Positions 25,774 to 64,000 of a DNA stretch of 64,000 bases are shown piece by piece. The number at the start of each line of letters is the position of its first letter. The first letter of the stretch is position 1. Source of the DNA: Saprospiraceae bacterium (GTDB lineage Bacteria > Bacteroidota > Bacteroidia > Chitinophagales > Saprospiraceae); assembly GCA_022844565.1 (NCBI GenBank), contig JALHLK010000013.1:1-64000 (forward strand). Reading direction: 5' to 3'. The notes beneath the pieces are model-generated. The model saw nothing but the letters and a program-made list of their open reading frames with translations, did not search any database and was not told the DNA's origin. Made by a program: the position numbers and the translations under genes.

Positions 25774-27438
25774 ATGGAAAGAAGAGCATTCTTAAAAAAC
25801 TTGACCAAAATCGCTCCTGTAGAAGGGGAAAAGCCTATAATGGAAGAGGAACCGACAAACACTGGACTCAATAAATTTACGGGGACTTGGGATAAAAGAA
25901 AAGTAGCACACCTATTAAGAAGGGCAACTTATGGTTTCAAATTTTCTGATTTGGAAACATTGGAAAAAGAAGGATTGGATAAAACCATCGAATTATTATT
26001 CAGAAATCTCCCTTTAACAGACTTACCTTTAAATTATGATTATGCCGATGATCCTAATGTTCCTTTAGGTCAAACATGGGTGAATGAAAAAAAAGGTATT
26101 GATAATAACACTTCAAATTACCAATTCAGATCCATTAGAGCATGGAGAGTGGGTAGAACGTACTCCGGGGAATTATCCATTAAAGAAAAAATGACCACCT
26201 TTTGGATAAACCATTTTGGAATTGCTGATGTTGACGATGGCAGATTTTTATGGAGATACCTCAACTTATTGTATGATAATTTTGATGGAGATTTTAAGAA
26301 AATTATCGAAGAAATCACCATTAACCCTTCTATGTTGAGATTTTTGGATGGTAGGGTCAATACTCGAAGATCTCCAAATGAAAACTTTGCAAGAGAAGTT
26401 TTAGAGTTATTCACCATAGGGAAAGGTCCAACTGCAGGGCCAGGTGACTATACAAATTATACTGAAAAAGATATTTTTGAATTAGCAAAGGTGTTTACAG
26501 GTTGGCGAGATACTAACTACAGGAATGCTGTTAATGAAGGAATTGAACCTGTATTTACTCTGGGAAATCATGATACTACTACAAAGCAATTGAGCGAGAG
26601 ATTTGGTAATGCCAAAATTGCAAGCAATGGCATAAATGAGTATAAAGATGCGATAAATGTTATATTTCAACAACCAGAGGTTTCTAAATTTATAGCCAGA
26701 AAATTATATCGATATTTTGTTTATTATAAAATTGATAATTCTGTAGAACAAAATATAATTGAACCTTTGGCAAAAATGATTAGGGATGATAAATACGTAT
26801 TAAGAAGAGCTATAAAAACATTATTGTCCAGCGAGCATTTTTACGATGCTGCAATTATTGGTACAATGATAAAAAATCCTCAAGACTTCATGAGTCATGC
26901 TTCTGTAAATTTAGGTCTAACTATTCCTGGTAATTATGTGGCAAAGTACAGATATTTATATTCTAGTGACTTATTGCATGGTCGATTGGAAATGTCAACA
27001 TTCAATTTACCCAGTGTTGCCGGGTGGAAAGCCTACTATCAAGAACCTACCTACTACCAAGGATGGATAAACTCGGTCACACTTCCATTAAGAACTAGGA
27101 TTACAGATACTTTTCACTTAAGAACAGCTTATTCATTTGGTGGGCTAGGAGTAAAAATAGATGGAACAGTATTGTTAAATTCATTTAAAAATCCAAGTGA
27201 TATCAATGAAGTATTGAGTAATTTAAATGTGCTGTTGTTCGCTAAACCATTTACAGATAAACAAATCACATCCCTTAAAAAATTATTATCTCCAAAAACT
27301 GGCACTGATGGAGAATGGTCGACAACTATAAAAGATTGGAATACCAATCCTTCTACTACAAATACGACCAATGTCAGAATGTTGATGCACGACTTATTAA
27401 GAACTATGTCTTATATGCCTGAATATCAATTAAGTTAA
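25774..27438 (+). CDS. DUF1800-domain protein
   Basis: About 554 aa; the ATG at 25774 is chosen over an adjacent GTG. A twin-arginine-like start (MERRAFLKNLTK) precedes the DUF1800 domain: KVAHLLRRATYGFKFSDLE, then TTFWINHFGIADVDDGRFLW, and NENFAREVLELFTIGKGPT in the middle. DUF1800 proteins are almost always paired with DUF1501 proteins, as here (25 bp downstream). Both are exported and of unknown biochemical activity; in planctomycetes and Bacteroidetes they are tied to polymer use or cell surface. I do not assign a reaction. Confidence 0.88.
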   Translation: MERRAFLKNLTKIAPVEGEKPIMEEEPTNTGLNKFTGTWDKRKVAHLLRRATYGFKFSDLETLEKEGLDKTIELLFRNLPLTDLPLNYDYADDPNVPLGQTWVNEKKGIDNNTSNYQFRSIRAWRVGRTYSGELSIKEKMTTFWINHFGIADVDDGRFLWRYLNLLYDNFDGDFKKIIEEITINPSMLRFLDGRVNTRRSPNENFAREVLELFTIGKGPTAGPGDYTNYTEKDIFELAKVFTGWRDTNYRNAVNEGIEPVFTLGNHDTTTKQLSERFGNAKIASNGINEYKDAINVIFQQPEVSKFIARKLYRYFVYYKIDNSVEQNIIEPLAKMIRDDKYVLRRAIKTLLSSEHFYDAAIIGTMIKNPQDFMSHASVNLGLTIPGNYVAKYRYLYSSDLLHGRLEMSTFNLPSVAGWKAYYQEPTYYQGWINSVTLPLRTRITDTFHLRTAYSFGGLGVKIDGTVLLNSFKNPSDINEVLSNLNVLLFAKPFTDKQITSLKKLLSPKTGTDGEWSTTIKDWNTNPSTTNTTNVRMLMHDLLRTMSYMPEYQLS

Positions 27439-50751: not shown

Positions 50752-51267
50752 CTAATTACAAAGCAATGTAAGCTCAGAAGTAGTTACCGTATTGCTTTTA
50801 TTACCTGCTCGATCCAACATATAAACACTTAATGCAAGCTTATTTGTAGGCGTATCGTCAAGTTTTGAACAAGGAGGAGCGTTTGAGAATCTACAGCAAG
50901 TGGAAAATACATTTAAAGTGATCCTTCCTTCTATCCCATTGTTTGCTCCTTTTTCAGGAATGGCGGGGATTTTATAGGAATCATAAATTTCTTTCGTCCG
51001 GCTATCGATTAAGAATAAATTTAAATTCTGATCATTACTAGCTGTCCCAATATCACCATCACCATCTTTAAAATCCAAAATTAAAGATACACTATCTTGG
51101 TTTAACGTGCCTTGTCTCATTGTTTGTTTATTAAAACCAATAAAAGTCAATTCTGGTGTAGTACTAAAATTAGGACTTAAACTGCAAGCATACAATGAGG
51201 AAAAAAGTAAAATTACGTAAACGTAACAAACTGTAGAAATATTAAAGGTAAAAGGTCTAATCTTCAT
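50752..51267 (-). CDS. Hypothetical lipoprotein
   Basis: 171-aa lipoprotein; the hydrophobic signal ends in lipobox Cys28 (FSSLYACSLSP). The mature part is beta-rich and contains DFKDGDGDIGTASNDQN, a calcium-binding-like acidic loop seen in several Bacteroidetes surface lipoproteins, and a cysteine-rich CCRFSNAPPCSK. I do not recognise a function. Transcribed alone, convergent with trehalase. Confidence 0.72.
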   Translation of the reverse strand: MKIRPFTFNISTVCYVYVILLFSSLYACSLSPNFSTTPELTFIGFNKQTMRQGTLNQDSVSLILDFKDGDGDIGTASNDQNLNLFLIDSRTKEIYDSYKIPAIPEKGANNGIEGRITLNVFSTCCRFSNAPPCSKLDDTPTNKLALSVYMLDRAGNKSNTVTTSELTLLCN

Positions 51268-56284: not shown

Positions 56285-57355
56285 TCACTTATCAATCTCT
56301 AATAATCTTTCTTTTATATCAACATCGAACCTTTCCTTGCCATCAAACAAGAATTCAACCCAAACAGGCAACACAAACACATTGATTTTCTCTTTGATAA
56401 ATGTTTCATAATGAAGAGCAAGTCGAGTGGCATCTTTTTCCGTGGTTAACAGTATTCGCGAGGCTTCGTCTGGCATTCTTTTGTATGCTTCTAAAATGTT
56501 TTGAATATCAAACTCGGTAAAATATCTGTGATCTTCATATTCAAGATTTTTTACCTCAAAATTAAATTTATCTAAATAATCCATCAGATAAGAGGTGCTC
56601 GCAATAGCTGTCACCAACAATACAGATTTCACCCTATTAAAATCCAATTTGTAAGAGCCTTCATAGAGCGAGTAAGGTTTACCATAAATATATTTTGAGA
56701 AGTACACCTTTTGATAGTCAAGAGGTTTTAACTCAGAAATTATTTCTTGGGCTTCATTTTCTGAAAGGTCAGACGGGCACTTTGATACAATAATGATATC
56801 TGCTCTTTCTGCCGAAGATTTGCGCTCTCTCAATCTTCCCATTGGGAGCAGAAAGTCTTTTGTGTATCTATTTTGATAAGACGTAATTAAAATATTTACA
56901 TCAGGAAATACAGAACGATGTTGATAGGCATCGTCTAATATGATTGTTTCTAGGTTTGGTTGTCTTTTGACCATTTCGGGTATGCCAGTAGATCTACTTT
57001 CGCATACTGCCACAGTAACATCTTGATATTTCTTAGCATACATCAGAGGTTCGTCTCCTACATTTTTAGAATTATCACTTTGACTCACCATCCTAAATCC
57101 ATTAGTCGATCGATTATATCCTCTACTGAGAACACCGACATTAATGTATGGTTTGAGTAAATTTAATAAATACTCGACGTGTGGCGTTTTACCAGCACCA
57201 CCTACTGTAAGATTTCCGATACTTATTATAGGAATAGAAAACTTAGTAGACTTTAATAAATCTACTTCATAAAAAACATTCCTAAGTCCTACCGTTAGGC
57301 CATATAAAACAGAAAAAGGCCACAATAAGATACGAACAATTGGATTTTTGATCAT
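56285..57355 (-). CDS. lpxK: Tetraacyldisaccharide 4'-kinase
   Basis: Membrane-associated kinase of 356 aa adding the 4'-phosphate to the lipid A precursor. P-loop NLTVGGAGKTPHVEYL lies at about 48-63; the N-terminal helix (IVRILLWPFSVLYGLTVGL) embeds in the membrane. Catalytic motifs GVLSRGYNRST, LDDAYQHRSV and TTEKDATRL follow. Three bp after the S41 protease gene, so cotranscribed. Confidence 0.95.
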   Translation of the reverse strand: MIKNPIVRILLWPFSVLYGLTVGLRNVFYEVDLLKSTKFSIPIISIGNLTVGGAGKTPHVEYLLNLLKPYINVGVLSRGYNRSTNGFRMVSQSDNSKNVGDEPLMYAKKYQDVTVAVCESRSTGIPEMVKRQPNLETIILDDAYQHRSVFPDVNILITSYQNRYTKDFLLPMGRLRERKSSAERADIIIVSKCPSDLSENEAQEIISELKPLDYQKVYFSKYIYGKPYSLYEGSYKLDFNRVKSVLLVTAIASTSYLMDYLDKFNFEVKNLEYEDHRYFTEFDIQNILEAYKRMPDEASRILLTTEKDATRLALHYETFIKEKINVFVLPVWVEFLFDGKERFDVDIKERLLEIDK

Positions 57356-57358
57356 ATA

Positions 57359-58999
57359 TTATTTAGCTCCTAACAAGTTTTTGAATTTTACTTGATCATT
57401 TATTAAAGAGATAGTTTCCTTTACTTCAATGTCATTTCTCAAGTTAATCTGAGATTTCCCCTTTTCAAATCGGTATCTTGAAGCAATTTCTTTTTCTATT
57501 TCATGGATAATCTCGTCTTTGTGTTTTTTTAAGTCTTCAGCTTTTGATGATTTAAATTGTTCGCCAATTGCTTTCAGATTACTACTCATTGCCCCTTTCA
57601 AATCAGCAGCCTTATCTATAGAAGCATTCAAGTTTTCAAAATGATCTTCTCCTTCTAATTTGTAACTAAAATTACTCTTTTGAAGGAATTCAGTAAACTT
57701 ATTAAACTCCGAAAAATTAAAGGACGTAATATCGCCTTCAAATGAAGGATTTTTTTTCATAAATTCGTTGACATACATGAAAATCGTCTTTTGATCTTTA
57801 AAAGCTTTCATGAGATTAGACAACTCGGGTTTAACCATCTTCTGATCAGGCGTTACTCCACCACCATCTAATACTACCCTACCATTTTTAGTTTTAAATT
57901 TAGACCTTTTATCATCAGGAATATTCACAGGATCCCCATTTGCATATTCTACGCCTTGTATGCACCTACCGCTAGGTATATAATATTTAGAGATAGTTAC
58001 TTTCACCCTACTGTTATACCCTATTTCAAATATATTTTGTACCAAACCTTTTCCGTAAGTACGTTGGCCGAGTATTACTGCCCTATCGTAATCTTGTAAC
58101 ACACCTGAGACGATCTCACTTGCTGATGCAGATCTATCATCTACCAGCACCACCAAAGGTATGTCTAAATCCTCTGGAGTACTCATTGTCTTGAATACAT
58201 TGTCTTTGTCGCGAAGCTTACCTTTGGTCGTTACAACTTCGAGACCTTTAGGTATAAACAAATTACATATACTTACCGCTTCTCTTAACAAACCACCACC
58301 GTTTTGCCTTAAGTCTAACATCAGCCCTTTAAGATTTTCATCCTTTTCTTTCAAACTTTTAAAAGCCTTAGAAATATTAACTGTCGAATTTTCTGTAAAA
58401 GTGGTCAACTGTATATACCCAATACCGTCTGCTACTAAATCACTGTGTGGAACATTAGAAATCTTCACCTCGTCCCGTTTTAACGAATATGACATCTCTT
58501 TACCTGTTTCATTTGAAACCAGCAAAAGAGAAACCGTGGTACCAGGTGCACCTCTTAAGAGACTTATTACATCATTTTCTGATTTTGCATCAAGGGAAGA
58601 ACCATTTATATTAAGGATTCTATCTCCTGCTTTTAACCCAGCTTCTTGAGCAGATCCTCCTTCTAATAGATTTGAGAGATAAAAGTCTTTACCTATTTTA
58701 AATACTGAGGCTCCGATACCTTGAAATTTATCGTCATCTGAAATTCGGTAAGATTGAACTTGAGACTCTGTTATGTAATTAGTGTAAGGATCTAGTGAAC
58801 TCACCATGGCATCGATACCTGTTTTCATTAAAGTATTCGGGTCAATCTCATCTACATAATGCACATTCAACATTTTATAAACAGATGCATACAGCTCCAT
58901 ATTCTTGGCGATTTCAAATAATCTATCATTTTCAACCGTAAAGGCAAAAATACTGGTTAAGATTAAAAGAGAAAAGCCAGCAATTTTTAATTTCTTCAT
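57359..58999 (-). CDS. C-terminal processing S41 peptidase (CtpA-like)
   Basis: 546-aa exported serine protease. Signal peptide (KKLKIAGFSLLILTSIFAFT), N-terminal helices, a PDZ domain (about 90-170, KFQGIGASVFKIGKDFYLSN and GLKAGDRILNINGSSLD), then the S41 domain with DLRQNGGGLLREAVSICN, nucleophile Ser in DDRSASASEIVSGVLQD and Lys in GQRTYGKGLVQ. The catalytic Ser/Lys dyad is intact. A C-terminal helical extension (about 430-546) is longer than in many CtpA proteins. Promoter TATATTTG about 75 bp upstream. Confidence 0.92.
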   Translation of the reverse strand: MKKLKIAGFSLLILTSIFAFTVENDRLFEIAKNMELYASVYKMLNVHYVDEIDPNTLMKTGIDAMVSSLDPYTNYITESQVQSYRISDDDKFQGIGASVFKIGKDFYLSNLLEGGSAQEAGLKAGDRILNINGSSLDAKSENDVISLLRGAPGTTVSLLLVSNETGKEMSYSLKRDEVKISNVPHSDLVADGIGYIQLTTFTENSTVNISKAFKSLKEKDENLKGLMLDLRQNGGGLLREAVSICNLFIPKGLEVVTTKGKLRDKDNVFKTMSTPEDLDIPLVVLVDDRSASASEIVSGVLQDYDRAVILGQRTYGKGLVQNIFEIGYNSRVKVTISKYYIPSGRCIQGVEYANGDPVNIPDDKRSKFKTKNGRVVLDGGGVTPDQKMVKPELSNLMKAFKDQKTIFMYVNEFMKKNPSFEGDITSFNFSEFNKFTEFLQKSNFSYKLEGEDHFENLNASIDKAADLKGAMSSNLKAIGEQFKSSKAEDLKKHKDEIIHEIEKEIASRYRFEKGKSQINLRNDIEVKETISLINDQVKFKNLLGAK

Positions 59000-59297: not shown

Positions 59298-59369
59298 GGC
59301 CCGTTCGTCTAGGGGTTAGGACGCCAGATTTTCATTCTGGTAGCACGGGTTCGATTCCCGTACGGGCTA
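59298..59369 (+). tRNA. tRNA-Glu (anticodon TTC)
   Basis: Full cloverleaf: acceptor GGCCCGT/ACGGGCT, anticodon stem CCAGA/TCTGG with loop TTTTCAT (anticodon TTC), T-arm ACGGG-TTCGATT-CCCGT. Discriminator A at 59369; no encoded CCA. The G1-U72 pair is a wobble. Confidence 0.97.
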
Positions 59370-59374
59370 CAGTG

Positions 59375-59412
59375 ATGCCTCGAATCCTTTGATTCGGGGC
59401 ATTTTTGTTTTT
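59375..59412 (+). terminator. Terminator after tRNA-Glu
   Basis: 12-bp stem ATGCCTCGAATC/GATTCGGGGCAT (one G-T pair), 4-nt loop, then a T-rich run. Confidence 0.82.
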
Positions 59413-59428
59413 CCCAGCTATTTCCCAG
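59410..59428. other. TTTCCCAG direct repeats beside tRNA-Glu (possible integrase arm sites)
   Basis: Two TTTCCCAG copies at 59410-59417 and 59421-59428, spaced 11 bp, one helical turn, at the left edge of the putative island. Such repeats are typical arm-type sites of tyrosine recombinases. Inference only. Confidence 0.35.
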
Positions 59429-59496
59429 TCGATTAAAAAAAGCAAATGTATATATTGTTTTGATTTCTTTGTTTATTTGTATAAAATTTAATTTAT

Positions 59497-60306
59497 ATGA
59501 GTTTGGAAACAAAACTTAAAAACGCCTTAAATGGTTACATAGATCTTATCAGATTAGCCAAATCTGAAACTTATTTTCAATATTATAATAAAATTTACGT
59601 AAGATATCTTACAGCTAGGGGTGAATTAAAAGATAATTTTAATAGCATTATCTCAGACTTTATAAAGTATGATTATCATGATGGAGCAAAGCAATACTTA
59701 ATTTCTACAATCCAACAACACCACATAGATGGTCCTTTACTTGAAGCGTATGAAGACTTTATTAAAAAGACTCTAAATAATTATTTGGAAAAATTATCAA
59801 CCAATAATATTCTAACATCTCCAACTTCAGTATCGCCTGTAAGAGTATCTCCTAGCTTAGCATCACCTATCATAAGTATAAATTCTGAAGCCAATTATAA
59901 TAAAGAAACTATTCCGCCACTAAATAAACTCTCCTTCAAGCCTGAATATATGGCTGTAATTGAAGATGTTTATAGAGTTATAGTAACAGAGCATAGAATT
60001 TTACATTGCAATCTTGATTCATTCATATCTTTATTTCAAGGTAATAAGCCAGAAGAGCCTATAATAATAAATGATGTGATAAAAGGTAATCTACTTAATT
60101 TCAAACTTTGTGTAAGAGAACTTTTAACTAGCAATAAATATACAGCAATTTGCCAATACATCACTTCTTTAAAGAATGAAAGGGCTTTAGAGCCAACCAC
60201 AGTAAGTGGAGCTAAATTTCCAAAACATGAAGAAAATCAATATTCACAACTAGAACCATTTGGCATTCAGATTGAACTTAGGACGTTAAAATCAAAGGAA
60301 AAATGA
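59497..60306 (+). CDS. Unrecognised protein of the tRNA-Glu island (269 aa)
   Basis: I do not recognise this family. The 269 residues are mostly charged helices: an N-terminal helical domain (about 1-105), a Ser/Pro/Val-rich linker with SPTSVSPVRVSPSLASP repeats (about 108-128), and a second helical domain from about 150. No signal peptide, membrane segment, or HTH visible. Not obviously RteC. First gene right of tRNA-Glu, so possibly an island regulator or accessory protein. Codon and base use are somewhat more AT-rich than the genes to the left. Confidence 0.72.
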   Translation: MSLETKLKNALNGYIDLIRLAKSETYFQYYNKIYVRYLTARGELKDNFNSIISDFIKYDYHDGAKQYLISTIQQHHIDGPLLEAYEDFIKKTLNNYLEKLSTNNILTSPTSVSPVRVSPSLASPIISINSEANYNKETIPPLNKLSFKPEYMAVIEDVYRVIVTEHRILHCNLDSFISLFQGNKPEEPIIINDVIKGNLLNFKLCVRELLTSNKYTAICQYITSLKNERALEPTTVSGAKFPKHEENQYSQLEPFGIQIELRTLKSKEK

Positions 60307-60615
60307 CCAGATTATAAAAGAGCTATAGATAATCCCAAAAAAGCTTCTAACACCTTTTATCCTCCTTTAGAAAATCATTTTCTTATTTATGTATCAGTAA
60401 CATTCTTTCTCGATATTTTATGTTGCGTAATTGAGTCATTTGTCTATTTTTTCGGATCAATTTAAAATTGCAATGCTTAATCAATTAGATAGAAATATCT
60501 AAAACGTCGAAAACGTCAATCACGTTAAAAACTTTTATTTGTATGATTATCAACGTTTAAAACGTTAATTAAATTCATATATGATTATTACTTACATTTG
60601 CATCATCAATAAAAA
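60307..60615. other. Gene-free stretch with clustered AACGT motifs
   Basis: Within 60495-60570 lie five AACGT or ACGTT words (AAAACGTCGAAAACGTCAATCACGTT, then CAACGTTTAAAACGTTAAT), two of them palindromic AACGTT. They sit just upstream of the TACATTTG promoter. Candidate operators or iterons. No gene seen. Confidence 0.5.
60593..60600 (+). promoter_or_regulatory. Promoter -7 element upstream of the leader peptide
   Basis: TACATTTG matches TAnnTTTG; transcription would start near 60607, about 10 nt before the leader ATG. Confidence 0.55.
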
Positions 60616-60690
60616 ATGATGAGAATATATAATCTTATAACAAATATTAGAGGCCCCTGCTGCCAACCAAAATTATGTCTATTGACATAA
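60616..60690 (+). CDS. Candidate 24-aa leader peptide
   Basis: Open frame with two tandem ATG codons behind an A6 run: MMRIYNLITNIRGPCCQPKL followed by CLLT. Its 3' end forms a perfect hairpin TTATGTC-TATT-GACATAA (60673-60690), and a second hairpin with a T8 run follows before the 132-aa gene. Arrangement resembles a transcription attenuator. Expression is not shown; it may be chance. Confidence 0.4.
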   Translation: MMRIYNLITNIRGPCCQPKLCLLT

Positions 60691-60694
60691 ATAA

Positions 60695-60725
60695 AAGCTC
60701 GTTATGAGCAATTTTTTTTAATTTT
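60695..60725 (+). terminator. Weak hairpin with T run (possible attenuator)
   Basis: AGCTC-GTTAT-GAGCA followed by eight T residues, between the leader frame and the next gene's start at 60742. The stem is only 4-5 bp. Confidence 0.4.
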
Positions 60726-60741
60726 TTAAATATTTAATTTT

Positions 60742-61140
60742 ATGATTAAATTTTCTAAAGGTTTTGAGCACCTTATAAGCTCTTACAGCCAAGCTGAATT
60801 TACGGAGAATGAAGCAAAGGATTTACTTGAAAAGATCCTTGGTCCTAGCTTCAGCTTAGACTATTCCTTTTGTAGTAAAGGCAGATCCAATATATATAAC
60901 TTCTTTTATAATAAGGAGTTTGTATACAAACAATATGATCCCAATTACGGAGAATTCAAGTATTTCCTAAAAAAGGAAAACCACTTTGTAAAGATTGCAG
61001 CTGCACATAGCGGTTACTTTATAACTCATGCAGGAATACTTCTCCTCCTTGCAAATGCAGATAAATTTAGAATTACTTCTGAAGAGGAAGAATGCATTAG
61101 AGAGAGTGAAGCTGAAATAATAACATGCTTAGAGCTCTAA
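60742..61140 (+). CDS. Unrecognised small protein (132 aa)
   Basis: I do not recognise the family. Helical and mixed-charge, with FTENEAKDLLEKILGPSFSL, an aromatic middle (NIYNFFYNKEFVYKQYDPNY) and an acidic C-terminus (TSEEEECIRESEAEII). No signal, membrane segment or HTH. Located between the candidate attenuator and the HTH gene, so probably part of the same island module. Confidence 0.65.
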   Translation: MIKFSKGFEHLISSYSQAEFTENEAKDLLEKILGPSFSLDYSFCSKGRSNIYNFFYNKEFVYKQYDPNYGEFKYFLKKENHFVKIAAAHSGYFITHAGILLLLANADKFRITSEEEECIRESEAEIITCLEL

Positions 61141-61170
61141 AATAATTTAGCTTAAAAGAAAAAAAGAAAC

Positions 61171-61202
61171 ACCTGCACTTATTTCTAAATTAAAGTGCAG
61201 GT
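61171..61202 (+). terminator. Inverted repeat between the 132-aa gene and the HTH gene
   Basis: Perfect 10-bp arms ACCTGCACTT (61171-61180) and AAGTGCAGGT (61193-61202), 12-nt loop. The following sequence is only moderately T-rich, so it is a terminator or an operator. Confidence 0.55.
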
Positions 61203-61236
61203 AAATTTATTATTAACAATTTAAATACATAACATA

Positions 61237-61431
61237 ATGTTAGAGAACATTTTAACAGAAAATCAACTCCGTAAAGAGTTAAATCTTTCAAGATCGACCT
61301 TATTTAGATACCGAACAAAACTTGGGCTCCAGTTCATTAGAGTGGGAAACAAGAATTTCTACGAAGTAGAGGCGATTAGGGATTTTTTTAATAAACACAA
61401 AAGTAATTTAACTTTAAATGGAAGAAAATAA
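61237..61431 (+). CDS. Small HTH protein, excisionase/AlpA-like
   Basis: 64-aa winged or simple HTH protein: ENQLRKELNLSRSTLFRYRT is the HTH, followed by LGLQFIRVGNKNFYEVEAIR, the typical DNA-wing turn of helix_17/AlpA-like proteins. Common on integrative elements as excisionase or regulator. The gene overlaps the DUF3987 gene by 14 bp, so the two are coupled. Confidence 0.85.
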   Translation: MLENILTENQLRKELNLSRSTLFRYRTKLGLQFIRVGNKNFYEVEAIRDFFNKHKSNLTLNGRK

Positions 61432-62764
61432 TCTAATCCAAGGATCAATAGAATCCTTAAAACAGGAAAATGCCAATAATGCCAATAGTGACAGCTCTCA
61501 TACAGAGAGTTGTCATAATTGGGACTTCATGACGGCATACCAAAATAATGAGCAAATCCTTATTCCAAAACAAGTGTATGATATTTTACCTAGAAGAGTT
61601 TCTATTTTAACGGATACTTATCCAATGGGAGAACCTACGAGAGACGTGGCACTATTGACACTTTTGGCACATTACTCCTCCATATGCTATGGCACATCGG
61701 GTGTGTACCATAATCAATATTACCACCCTAATCTATTCGTGATGGTAGTGGGAGAAGCTGCAAGTGGTAAAGGGAATGCCATTTTTGCAAGGAGGACTCT
61801 ACAGGATATAGATAATTACACGCTTGATCCTTTACAGGCTCAAAAGAGGTTCATTATTGCTGGCAATAACTCTAGAGCTAATTTAATATATAGGTTAAAT
61901 GCAAACCAAGGAATCGGTATGATATCGGAAACTGAAGCTGACGCTATATCTATAAATAATAGGTCAGACTGGGGGAATAGCTCCTCGGATCACAGATGTG
62001 CTTTTCAAAATGAGCGAATATCAATGGAGCGTGCAGTTGATAAAAGAGTAATTGTAATTGATAAACCTCGATATGCTATGTCAGTAACAATGACACCTGG
62101 TCAAGTTGCTAATATGGTTGGCGACAGAGAAAATGGACTCTTTTCCAGAATTCTATTCTACACATTAGATAGACAGCCTGAATTTACCTCCCCCCAATCT
62201 TCAGGAGTAGCTTCAAATAGAAATGAAATAGTATCTGACTTATCTCTTGAGGTCTTAGAATGGTATAAAAAGTTTGAAGATATAACGCATGACTTTGTTC
62301 TATCTGATAATCAGTGGTCAGATTTTACGAATTTTTGGCAATGTAGATTTAAAGTATGGACCGACATGTACGGTCAAAACGAATCAGATCTTATATTCAG
62401 GTTAGGATTATCATCATTTAAAATAGCGATGATATTGCATACTATAGAGTTGGACCATCCGATTGAAAATAAAATCATCCAATGTAAAGATGAGTTTTTG
62501 GAAGCTTCTCTGACGATCTGTGAACTTCTGTTCTACCATGGGCTCAAAGTTACGGACTATCTAGATAAACCTAAGATTTCTATTAATACTTCTATCTCAA
62601 AGATACTGGCAGCAATACCTAATACTTTCTCAACTCAAGAGTTCCTTAATGCAGCATTCAAATTTAATATGGCAGAAAGGACCGCAAAAAGGTATTTACA
62701 CGGATTAGTTCAAGATAAGGTTCTGATTAAAATAAAACACGGTGTATTCGAAAAATACTTCTAG
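61418..62764 (+). CDS. DUF3987-domain protein (P-loop, primase-helicase-like)
   Basis: 448 aa. Walker A-like VVGEAASGKGNA at about 111-122, then FIIAGNNSRANLIYRLNANQ, GMISETEADAIS with acidic Walker B-like residues, and SVTMTPGQVANMVGDRENGL (sensor-like). This matches DUF3987, a domain usual beside HTH genes on Bacteroidetes mobile elements and related to primase-helicase modules. The C-terminus (about 400-448) looks like a winged HTH (FSTQEFLNAAFKFNMAERTA). Probably replication or mobilisation of the element. Confidence 0.85.
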   Translation: MEENNLIQGSIESLKQENANNANSDSSHTESCHNWDFMTAYQNNEQILIPKQVYDILPRRVSILTDTYPMGEPTRDVALLTLLAHYSSICYGTSGVYHNQYYHPNLFVMVVGEAASGKGNAIFARRTLQDIDNYTLDPLQAQKRFIIAGNNSRANLIYRLNANQGIGMISETEADAISINNRSDWGNSSSDHRCAFQNERISMERAVDKRVIVIDKPRYAMSVTMTPGQVANMVGDRENGLFSRILFYTLDRQPEFTSPQSSGVASNRNEIVSDLSLEVLEWYKKFEDITHDFVLSDNQWSDFTNFWQCRFKVWTDMYGQNESDLIFRLGLSSFKIAMILHTIELDHPIENKIIQCKDEFLEASLTICELLFYHGLKVTDYLDKPKISINTSISKILAAIPNTFSTQEFLNAAFKFNMAERTAKRYLHGLVQDKVLIKIKHGVFEKYF

Positions 62765-62843
62765 AAAAGGGTTATCTCTTATAAAGTGAACATTGGTTTT
62801 AACTACTTGAGCTTAATGCCTGTTTTGAAAACCTAGATACAAT

Positions 62844-62900
62844 GGATAGATATTCTTAAAAGTAGCTTATCTTATGCTATTAGAATATCTATCCTTTTTT
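62844..62900 (+). terminator. Long hairpin with T run after DUF3987
   Basis: Perfect 13-bp arms GGATAGATATTCT (62844-62856) and AGAATATCTATCC (62882-62894), inner TAGC/GCTA pairing, then TTTTTT. Probable terminator; a diverged copy lies 490 bp further on. Confidence 0.7.
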
Positions 62901-63329
62901 CGATTAAAACGAATGTCCTGTTATCTAAATGTGTGTAGTTTATTTTGTGGAATCCAATTTCCATAGACGTTTTCAAATATAAGGTGACCACTAAGAACTT
63001 GCTCCCAATGTCATATTTGTAAATCATATAGAAAAGATATACTCAATTTGGAGTTTTAAAAATAAACTTTTGTGTAAAAATCTCAAGAGCATTAATACAC
63101 CCACCATTTACTCTAGAATAATTTACAATATATATAATTCGATTTATAATGTTTTCTATAGGACTTTGTTACGCTCTTTGTTAAAAGAAAGTTTTAAAAA
63201 GCGCAAGTATTCCAACGGATCGACTAAGTAAGGTAACAAATAGGAATACATGATTATATTTCTTCTACAGAAGGCACTGGCATGACCAGAGAGCTTATGA
63301 ACTGTGATTACAACAATTACTTCGAAATA

Positions 63330-63390
63330 TAGAATAGATAGTCTTAGAGTAGCTTATTATGTTATCTTACTAGGATATCTGTCCTTTTAT
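63330..63390. repeat. Degenerate copy of the 62844 hairpin
   Basis: ATAGATAGTCTTAGAGTAGC and AGGATATCTGTCCTTTT match the first hairpin with several changes that break its stem. Confidence 0.55.
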
Positions 63391-63580
63391 CAATATAATA
63401 TATCCTACCACAAAATGTCAGGTTATGTATAATACAGTAGCTAATTTCCTAAAAGTTCCAATCTTCTAAGAAGATGTCGGGCTATATGCTTTACTTCGTG
63501 TTCGCTACTATCCCTAACTCATTTAGAAACAAATTTTATCTAATTATGAGTAAGCGCTATGTTTTCATTAGAATATAAAT

Positions 63581-64000
63581 TTAATCTTTAATGCATCGCA
63601 CAGAAAGCCCACGTGTTCGTTCCCAAAGAGTCGTACCAGCAAAAAAGTCAAAAAGTGTTATGCTGTTAACAATAGTTCCACTAACTGTACTTGTCCAATA
63701 AGCTCCAACATTTCCTTCACTTGTAACTTCACCATAAGAACTTCGGTACCCTGGCACTGAAAATTTTGTTGCCGCACTTATCGCACCCGCAGGCTCATTA
63801 ATTATCCAACTTGATCTTTCTTCCTCAAGTTCTTGGTAGGTTGGCACACTATAACCTTTTGGACATGGGTTATTCACCCCATTTACCCCCTGCCATAAAT
63901 TGTCGTTTTGTGGAGAACGCCAATCTGAAACACCTATGATAAAATCCCCATGACTGGGTTGATCCATATTGCTCACAGAACTTCTTGTAGAAGAATTTCT
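63581..64000 (-). CDS. FISUMP-domain protein (partial, runs off the right edge)
   Basis: The visible C-terminal 139 residues match the Fibrobacter succinogenes major paralogous domain: YDWRSPQNDN-like SDWRSPQNDNLWQGVNG, NPCPKGYSVPTYQELEEE, YWTSTVSGTIVNSITLF and the closing GLSVRCIKD. The frame is open through the window end, so the GTG near 63976 is not the true start. These are usually exported surface proteins of unknown role. Possibly cargo of the island. Confidence 0.85.
   Translation of the reverse strand, partial: RNSSTRSSVSNMDQPSHGDFIIGVSDWRSPQNDNLWQGVNGVNNPCPKGYSVPTYQELEEERSSWIINEPAGAISAATKFSVPGYRSSYGEVTSEGNVGAYWTSTVSGTIVNSITLFDFFAGTTLWERTRGLSVRCIKD

Follow-up and report, generated by a model that had tools for sequence, protein, structure and literature searches.

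The right end of the window (the whole 64,000-nucleotide stretch analyzed here, bases 1-64000 of the 104,299-bp contig C13 in a 5.59-Mb genome of 102 contigs) raises the question of whether the genes following its tRNA-Glu belong to an integrative element, as an earlier note had proposed, and what role the unrecognised genes among them might play. The evidence makes it very probable that a 32.7-kb integrative element (genomic island) targeted to tRNA-Glu has its left end here. The element is of an ordinary kind and well delimited; what had been a partial sighting is now a bounded element with att sites, an integrase, and defense-like cargo.

Delimitation of the element

The target gene and the direct repeats bounding the element are as follows (coordinates prefixed C13 refer to the contig):

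59298..59370, + strand, tRNA-Glu (TTC) gene (ARAGORN; Rfam tRNA), integration target, intact at the left side of the element
59350..59371, + strand, attL, a 22-bp direct repeat consisting of the last 21 tRNA bases plus one base
C13:91991-92012, outside the window, attR, exact partner of attL

The tRNA region has one further match in its own genome, the 22 bp at C13:91991-92012 with zero mismatches; in a genome-wide pattern search allowing up to 2 mismatches, the 22-bp repeat was found at these two sites only, and a reversed control pattern at none. The interval including both repeats measures 32,663 bp and reaches past the window to C13:92012. The right repeat does not lie inside a tRNA gene according to ARAGORN, the sole tRNA in the 20-kb stretch being tRNA-Arg at C13:95288-95362. 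A direct repeat of a tRNA 3′ end, present here at both ends, is a feature of tRNA-targeted elements with tyrosine integrases. The earlier note had advised searching rightwards for an integrase and a repeated tRNA 3′ end; both were found, the second, att-like copy lying 32.6 kb away with a tyrosine integrase adjoining it, which supports the proposed element. The GC content of the element is 0.321 versus 0.322 in the right flank, with no step at the boundary, so composition would not have betrayed it.

A gene order conserved at this tRNA, which the earlier note had named as a reason for doubt, was not seen in the same genus: none of four genomes gave a match to any of the 28 element proteins around tRNA-Glu (tblastn, E 1e-6; about 8.5-10 kb a side), nor did the 2,040-bp locus of a fifth, searched with four element proteins (G002). 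No empty-site relative was found in the stretches fetched from these five genomes. The left-flank gene pair at 57359-58999 and 56285-57355 stays together in all five, with no tRNA gene in those stretches, some of which are short contigs; neither flank stands beside tRNA-Glu there, save for the left-flank ORF 50752-51267, about 6 kb off in G005. The right flank encodes a GNAT acetyltransferase (Pfam), together with ORFs that we take to be fructose-bisphosphate aldolase, thioredoxin reductase, and methionyl-tRNA synthetase. At C13:101212-104151 (L005), a large lipoprotein-like ORF ends in an HHAVP-containing stretch and is followed by two smaller ORFs, an arrangement that presumably resembles a polymorphic toxin with its immunity genes.

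In another genus of the same family (L019/L112), a different tyrosine integrase (L112:9368-10825; 24% identity) is encoded 194 bp behind tRNA-Glu. Because this loosely related integrase lies directly behind the same type of tRNA gene, tRNA-Glu may be used by more than one element.

Integrase, candidate arm sites, and terminators

Features that may take part in integration, or that flank the insertion point, include:

C13:90533-91768, - strand, tyrosine integrase with Arm-DNA-bind_5, Phage_int_SAM_5, and Phage_integrase domains, all above cut-offs (Pfam)
59410..59428, + strand, two direct repeats of TTTCCCAG (starts 59410 and 59421, 11 bp start to start), putative arm-type integrase sites
59374..59412, + strand, terminator hairpin directly after the tRNA and inside the element (59371-59412 folds at -19.2 kcal/mol, z -5.3)
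C13:92012-92055, after attR, second terminator hairpin (-17.5, z -4.6)

The integrase gene lies just inside the element, 222 bp from the right repeat. Its sequence keeps the residues AGLRIGD, HSLRH, GHS, and the tyrosine of YAQ, which we take to be the catalytic pattern of tyrosine recombinases. At a strict limit of 1e-60, no other genome among 247 at the order level was matched, and a scan of the genome_contigs collection likewise returned none; at 1e-10, matches were obtained in 107 of 295 genomes of the class (own genome included), the best-scoring other one at 32% identity over residues 24-408.

The repeats noted earlier at the tRNA junction were confirmed at 59410 and 59421. Counting both strands, the contig contains four copies of TTTCCCAG, the other two being at C13:91804 and at 26560. 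The copy at C13:91804 sits inside the right end, within an 11-base match to 59408-59418. The 347 bp of non-coding DNA immediately internal to the two repeats therefore contain three of the four copies, all in one orientation (binomial 1.5e-7). Since the motif was first chosen from the two left copies, only this third copy is independent, and it is fairer to ask how often one of the remaining two would land in the right-hand 222 bp, for which the expectation is 0.004. By analogy, these copies are likely arm-type sites bound by the N-terminal domain of the integrase: the CTnDOT integrase binds subterminal arm sites, as described in the part of PMC8138268 available to us, and that model is applied here. 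The motif is absent beside the L112 integrase, which is neutral for the arm-site reading because that integrase is only 24% identical.

This anatomy suggests that a circular form of the element was inserted into the 3′ end of tRNA-Glu by the integrase encoded next to attR, the N-terminal domain of that enzyme presumably engaging the TTTCCCAG copies inside both ends. Such an insertion would have duplicated 22 bp, left the tRNA whole, and brought a new terminator behind it. T runs come after the hairpins located 3′ of both 22-bp repeats, and the hairpin after attR probably stood behind the tRNA before insertion; with a hairpin and T run right behind each repeat, the tRNA would keep a terminator after insertion. 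A promoter scan showed no excess over shuffles.

Gene content and defense-like cargo

The part of the element within the window contains the following genes:

59497..60306, + strand, 269-aa orphan protein (ORF), occupying the slot held by DUF6617 in related elements
60742..61140, + strand, 132-aa orphan protein (ORF), weak coding signal
61237..61431, + strand, 64-aa helix-turn-helix (HTH) protein (HTH_17, E 0.0014, below the curated cut-off; PHROG HTH DNA-binding, 2.7e-5; PHROG excisionase/regulator, 0.0018)
61418..62764, + strand, 448-aa DUF3987 protein (Pfam, E 8e-34), predicted helicase/ATPase of mobile element replication
63581..64000, continuing to C13:64855, - strand, FISUMP-domain cargo protein (Pfam), its gene cut by the window end

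All the genes that the earlier note had listed right of the tRNA (HTH, DUF3987, two unknown proteins, and FISUMP) are thus present, with the order amended: the two unknown proteins come first. The in-window part of the FISUMP protein passes the Pfam cut-off (35.8 versus 33.9 bits), and the whole ORF fails it (28.3 bits). Judging by its sequence matches, the 64-aa HTH protein is likely an excisionase or replication regulator. On the codon-usage scale used (40 training ORFs: median 0.125, leave-one-out 5% point 0.042; 8 spurious ORFs: maximum 0.031), the HTH ORF scores 0.030, which is below the 5% point.

Beyond FISUMP, the genes run from left to right as a 371-aa protein (no Pfam match), an FGE-sulfatase-domain protein, a RepL-like protein, a 123-aa protein (no match), and an AAA_24 protein that is Sak4-like by PHROG (phrog_124, E 1e-11). 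These are followed by DUF3871, a 168-aa protein (no match), a 158-aa protein (KTSC match just under the cut-off), a kinase with 13 WG stretches, two matchless proteins, HsdR, HsdS, a Bro-N protein, HsdM, two further matchless proteins, a DnaJ-domain protein, DUF6804, a 184-aa protein (no match), a TPR protein, a pP_pnuc_1/2 nuclease, and the integrase. Going by their families, the HTH and DUF3987 proteins of the left end and the inner RepL-like, Sak4-like, and DUF3871 proteins likely replicate or maintain the excised circle. DUF3871 also matched 1 plasmid and 2 phage records.

Some of these families would also suit a degraded prophage or phage satellite in place of an island, namely the Sak4-like annealing protein, a weak match to an O-like replication initiator (0.007), and the excisionase-like HTH protein. 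However, no phage structural or packaging family (capsid, portal, terminase, or tail) was recognised among the 28 element proteins scanned by Pfam or the 15 scanned by PHROGs, and we consider a phage origin decidedly unlikely. As to transfer genes of the proposed island, no relaxase or type IV secretion family was found among the 28 element ORFs (Pfam, at the E limits used); this negative applies to those 28 ORFs and does not extend to shorter or overlapping frames or to a possible oriT.

Part of the cargo, all of it beyond the window, resembles defense genes; two of these are listed below:

C13:73043-75649 (L003:14043-16649), Ser/Thr kinase fused to 13 WG stretches, matching several defense kinase models in the kinase domain only
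C13:89425-90321 (L004:10425-11321), 25 kb right of the window, nuclease of the pPIWI-associated type (pP_pnuc_1/2; PADLOC Aga_Nuclease, 4e-75)

The R, S, and M domains of a type I restriction-modification system are all found in the element (HsdR, HsdS, and HsdM), a few genes away from the kinase-WG gene. PADLOC matched HsdM, HsdS, the nuclease, the kinase (kinase domain only), and the Bro-N protein; the latter corresponds to PDC-S13 and is presumably DinD-like. No PIWI family that could represent the Argonaute partner of the nuclease was found among the 28 element proteins (Pfam), and this pPIWI-type nuclease is perhaps a stand-alone effector or a remnant; it has no match among PDB sequences (E 0.01). 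The restriction-modification, nuclease, and kinase genes account for 10,158 of the 32,663 bp. About 31% of the element is thus defense-like, and the remaining cargo is diverse or without assignment.

Related DUF3987 loci and the position of the integrase

Relatives of the DUF3987 protein were detected at E 1e-15 in 22 of 295 genomes of the class (own genome included), the best-scoring one at 32% identity. Outside these genomes, plasmids contributed five records at 22-28% identity, and neither viral_contigs nor PDB sequences (E 0.1) gave a match. For comparison of gene order, 18 of the 22 DUF3987 places outside the own genome were fetched, at up to 20 kb each, leaving out G251, G219, G357, and one of two places in G179. 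An integrase relative (phmmer, E 1e-3) is encoded on the same strand at 0.25-3.3 kb from DUF3987 in 17 of these 18 loci, upstream in 16 and downstream in L094; the 14.2-kb locus L106 has none. In half of the loci (9/18), a protein of 266-365 aa directly follows the integrase: six of these proteins pass the DUF6617 cut-off, two fall just short of it, and that of L096 has no match, its C-terminus being 59% identical to that of its L095 counterpart. The corresponding positions in L107 and L111 hold proteins of 203 and 586 aa. HTH_17 was confirmed (Pfam) for the two small proteins tested, those of L095 and L117, and HsdM relatives occur near DUF3987 in four of the 18 loci (L095, L097, L099, and L104).

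A compact arrangement is seen at L117:11-2242, where an integrase, a 261-aa protein, and an HTH protein follow one another; the middle protein reaches no Pfam cut-off but was retrieved when the C-terminal part of the slot protein from L096 served as query (E 6e-5). The DUF6617 protein of L095 was found in neither plasmids nor viral_contigs. Searches of the open literature found no mention of DUF6617 and no description of such an element type (topics: DUF6617, DUF3871, and DUF3987-integrase).

Unlike in the fetched relatives, the integrase of the present element is located at the end opposite DUF3987 and is inverted, so that the usual neighborhood closes only in the inferred circle, where the two genes would lie 2,290 bp apart and divergent, with attP between them. 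This placement could reflect a rearrangement or a composite origin. In the composite case, a small HTH-DUF3987 element, after losing its own integrase, would have merged with, or been invaded by, a second integrase element carrying the RepL-like, Sak4-like, and DUF3871 genes plus cargo, with a single att pair now bounding the whole. The presence of two replication-type gene sets points in that direction, as does the comparison with the integrase-bearing DUF3987 loci, in which the integrase lies upstream on the same strand in 16 of 17 and downstream on the same strand in the remaining one. On the other hand, a third copy of the repeat is missing from the genome even when 2 mismatches are allowed, TTTCCCAG is common to both ends, and the 2,290-bp gap in the circle is within the range of the relatives. 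A merger of two elements is judged less likely than not.

Two orphan proteins at the left end

The 269-aa and 132-aa proteins, which the earlier note had singled out as candidates for new biology, have no clear relative in the collections searched. Neither matched any ORF of at least 50 aa in the fetched loci (phmmer, E 10, default filters). The 269-aa frame has a codon-usage score that favors coding (0.095), and its product has no Pfam match up to E 1, including to DUF6617 (PF20322). It was found in none of 147 other relatives, and none of the genome_contigs, phages, plasmids, and viral_contigs collections contained it. Two of 394 other class genomes gave weak matches (E 0.006 and 0.009) that lie within much longer frames (879 and 688 aa) and were taken as chance; the two matches among PDB sequences are at chance level as well (best E 0.23). 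An AlphaFold2 model made without an alignment had a mean pLDDT of 35.1 and was unusable.

The 269-aa protein adjoins the att site and precedes HTH-DUF3987, as does DUF6617 in the related loci, raising the possibility that it is a fast-diverged protein of the DUF6617 type. A likeness of its C-terminus to the slot proteins of L095, L096, and L117, noticed by eye, found no support in three tests. The hhalign Probab against the nine slot proteins was 0.19 (maximum 100). With a profile built from five slot C-termini, the score of the 269-aa protein was reached by 256 of 1805 reported shuffles (2000 made), and two other proteins of the element, the integrase and the TPR protein, outscored it. Global alignment to these five gave z values of -0.35 (residues 149-269) and 0.15 (residues 149-250) relative to shuffles. 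A MAFFT alignment shows 21% identity with large gaps and proves nothing. With the three tests giving no support, the relation to DUF6617 is stated by position only. The recurrence of a protein of similar size directly after the integrase in half of the fetched loci, mostly above or just below the DUF6617 cut-off, favors common descent, but the missing Pfam match and the hhalign, shuffle, and global-alignment results speak against it; we regard rapid divergence as possible, somewhat short of probable. Equally tentatively, position suggests as its likeliest role that of an accessory of recombination or replication, in which the 269-aa protein would do for the integrase-replication module what DUF6617 does elsewhere.

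The 132-aa frame has a codon-usage score of 0.046, weakly favoring coding. Its one match in 147 other relatives (E 8e-4, 33% over 64 residues) lies inside a 789-aa open frame and was taken as chance. The protein was found in none of the plasmids, viral_contigs, and phages collections and had no match among PDB sequences (E 1). The AlphaFold2 model made without an alignment was again unusable (mean pLDDT 41.2). Just upstream of this gene is one further feature:

60697..60722, + strand, short hairpin followed by a T run, a weak candidate terminator or attenuator

The hairpin call is weak because the region contains two terminator-like sites versus 2.1 expected in shuffles. Together with the weak coding signal and the absence of clear relatives, this hairpin could indicate that the frame is not a gene and that the stretch instead yields a short transcript with a terminator-like hairpin. 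Nevertheless, the coding score exceeds by a small margin the 5% point for real genes and is higher than that of any of the eight spurious frames, terminator-like sites are no commoner here than in shuffles, and Rfam at the gathering threshold detected nothing but the tRNA in the 20 kb searched; that the frame is not a gene is considered unlikely. A bolder proposal is that the two orphans represent two new families of att-adjacent accessory factors controlling recombination direction or circle copying in an element whose integrase has been split from the replication module and inverted, the 269-aa protein replacing DUF6617 without shared ancestry. This is a speculative reading to which we attach little probability.

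Comparison with known systems

Several features of the element are shared with the NBU1/IntCTnDOT-subgroup elements of Bacteroidetes, as described in the accessible sections of PMC8138268. These include an integrase with domains for arm binding, core binding, and catalysis, a tRNA 3′ end as the insertion site, and subterminal short repeats as candidate arm sites. In contrast to that subgroup, no mobilisation or conjugation family was recognised here, the target is tRNA-Glu, and the integrase lies opposite HTH-DUF3987. The DUF3987 protein has the domain of the DUF3987 ATPases of mobile elements, predicted to be helicases of mobile element replication and often fused to a primase, according to the part of PMC5862659 available to us. 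The present protein differs in having 448 aa and no primase domain recognised in the Pfam scan.

Further close counterparts are the integrase-DUF6617-HTH-DUF3987 elements of the same class (L094-L111), which likewise have an HTH gene next to DUF3987, a similar-sized protein before HTH-DUF3987 in nine of the 18 loci, and HsdM relatives nearby in four. The element described here differs from them in its opposite and inverted integrase, in a 269-aa protein that is not detectably DUF6617, in an extra 132-aa gene, and in sequence, the best-scoring relatives of DUF3987 and of the integrase each showing 32% identity. Across these elements, the poorly described DUF6617 slot between the integrase and HTH-DUF3987 recurs in half of the fetched related loci, which would allow its function to be studied in relatives that can be cultured.
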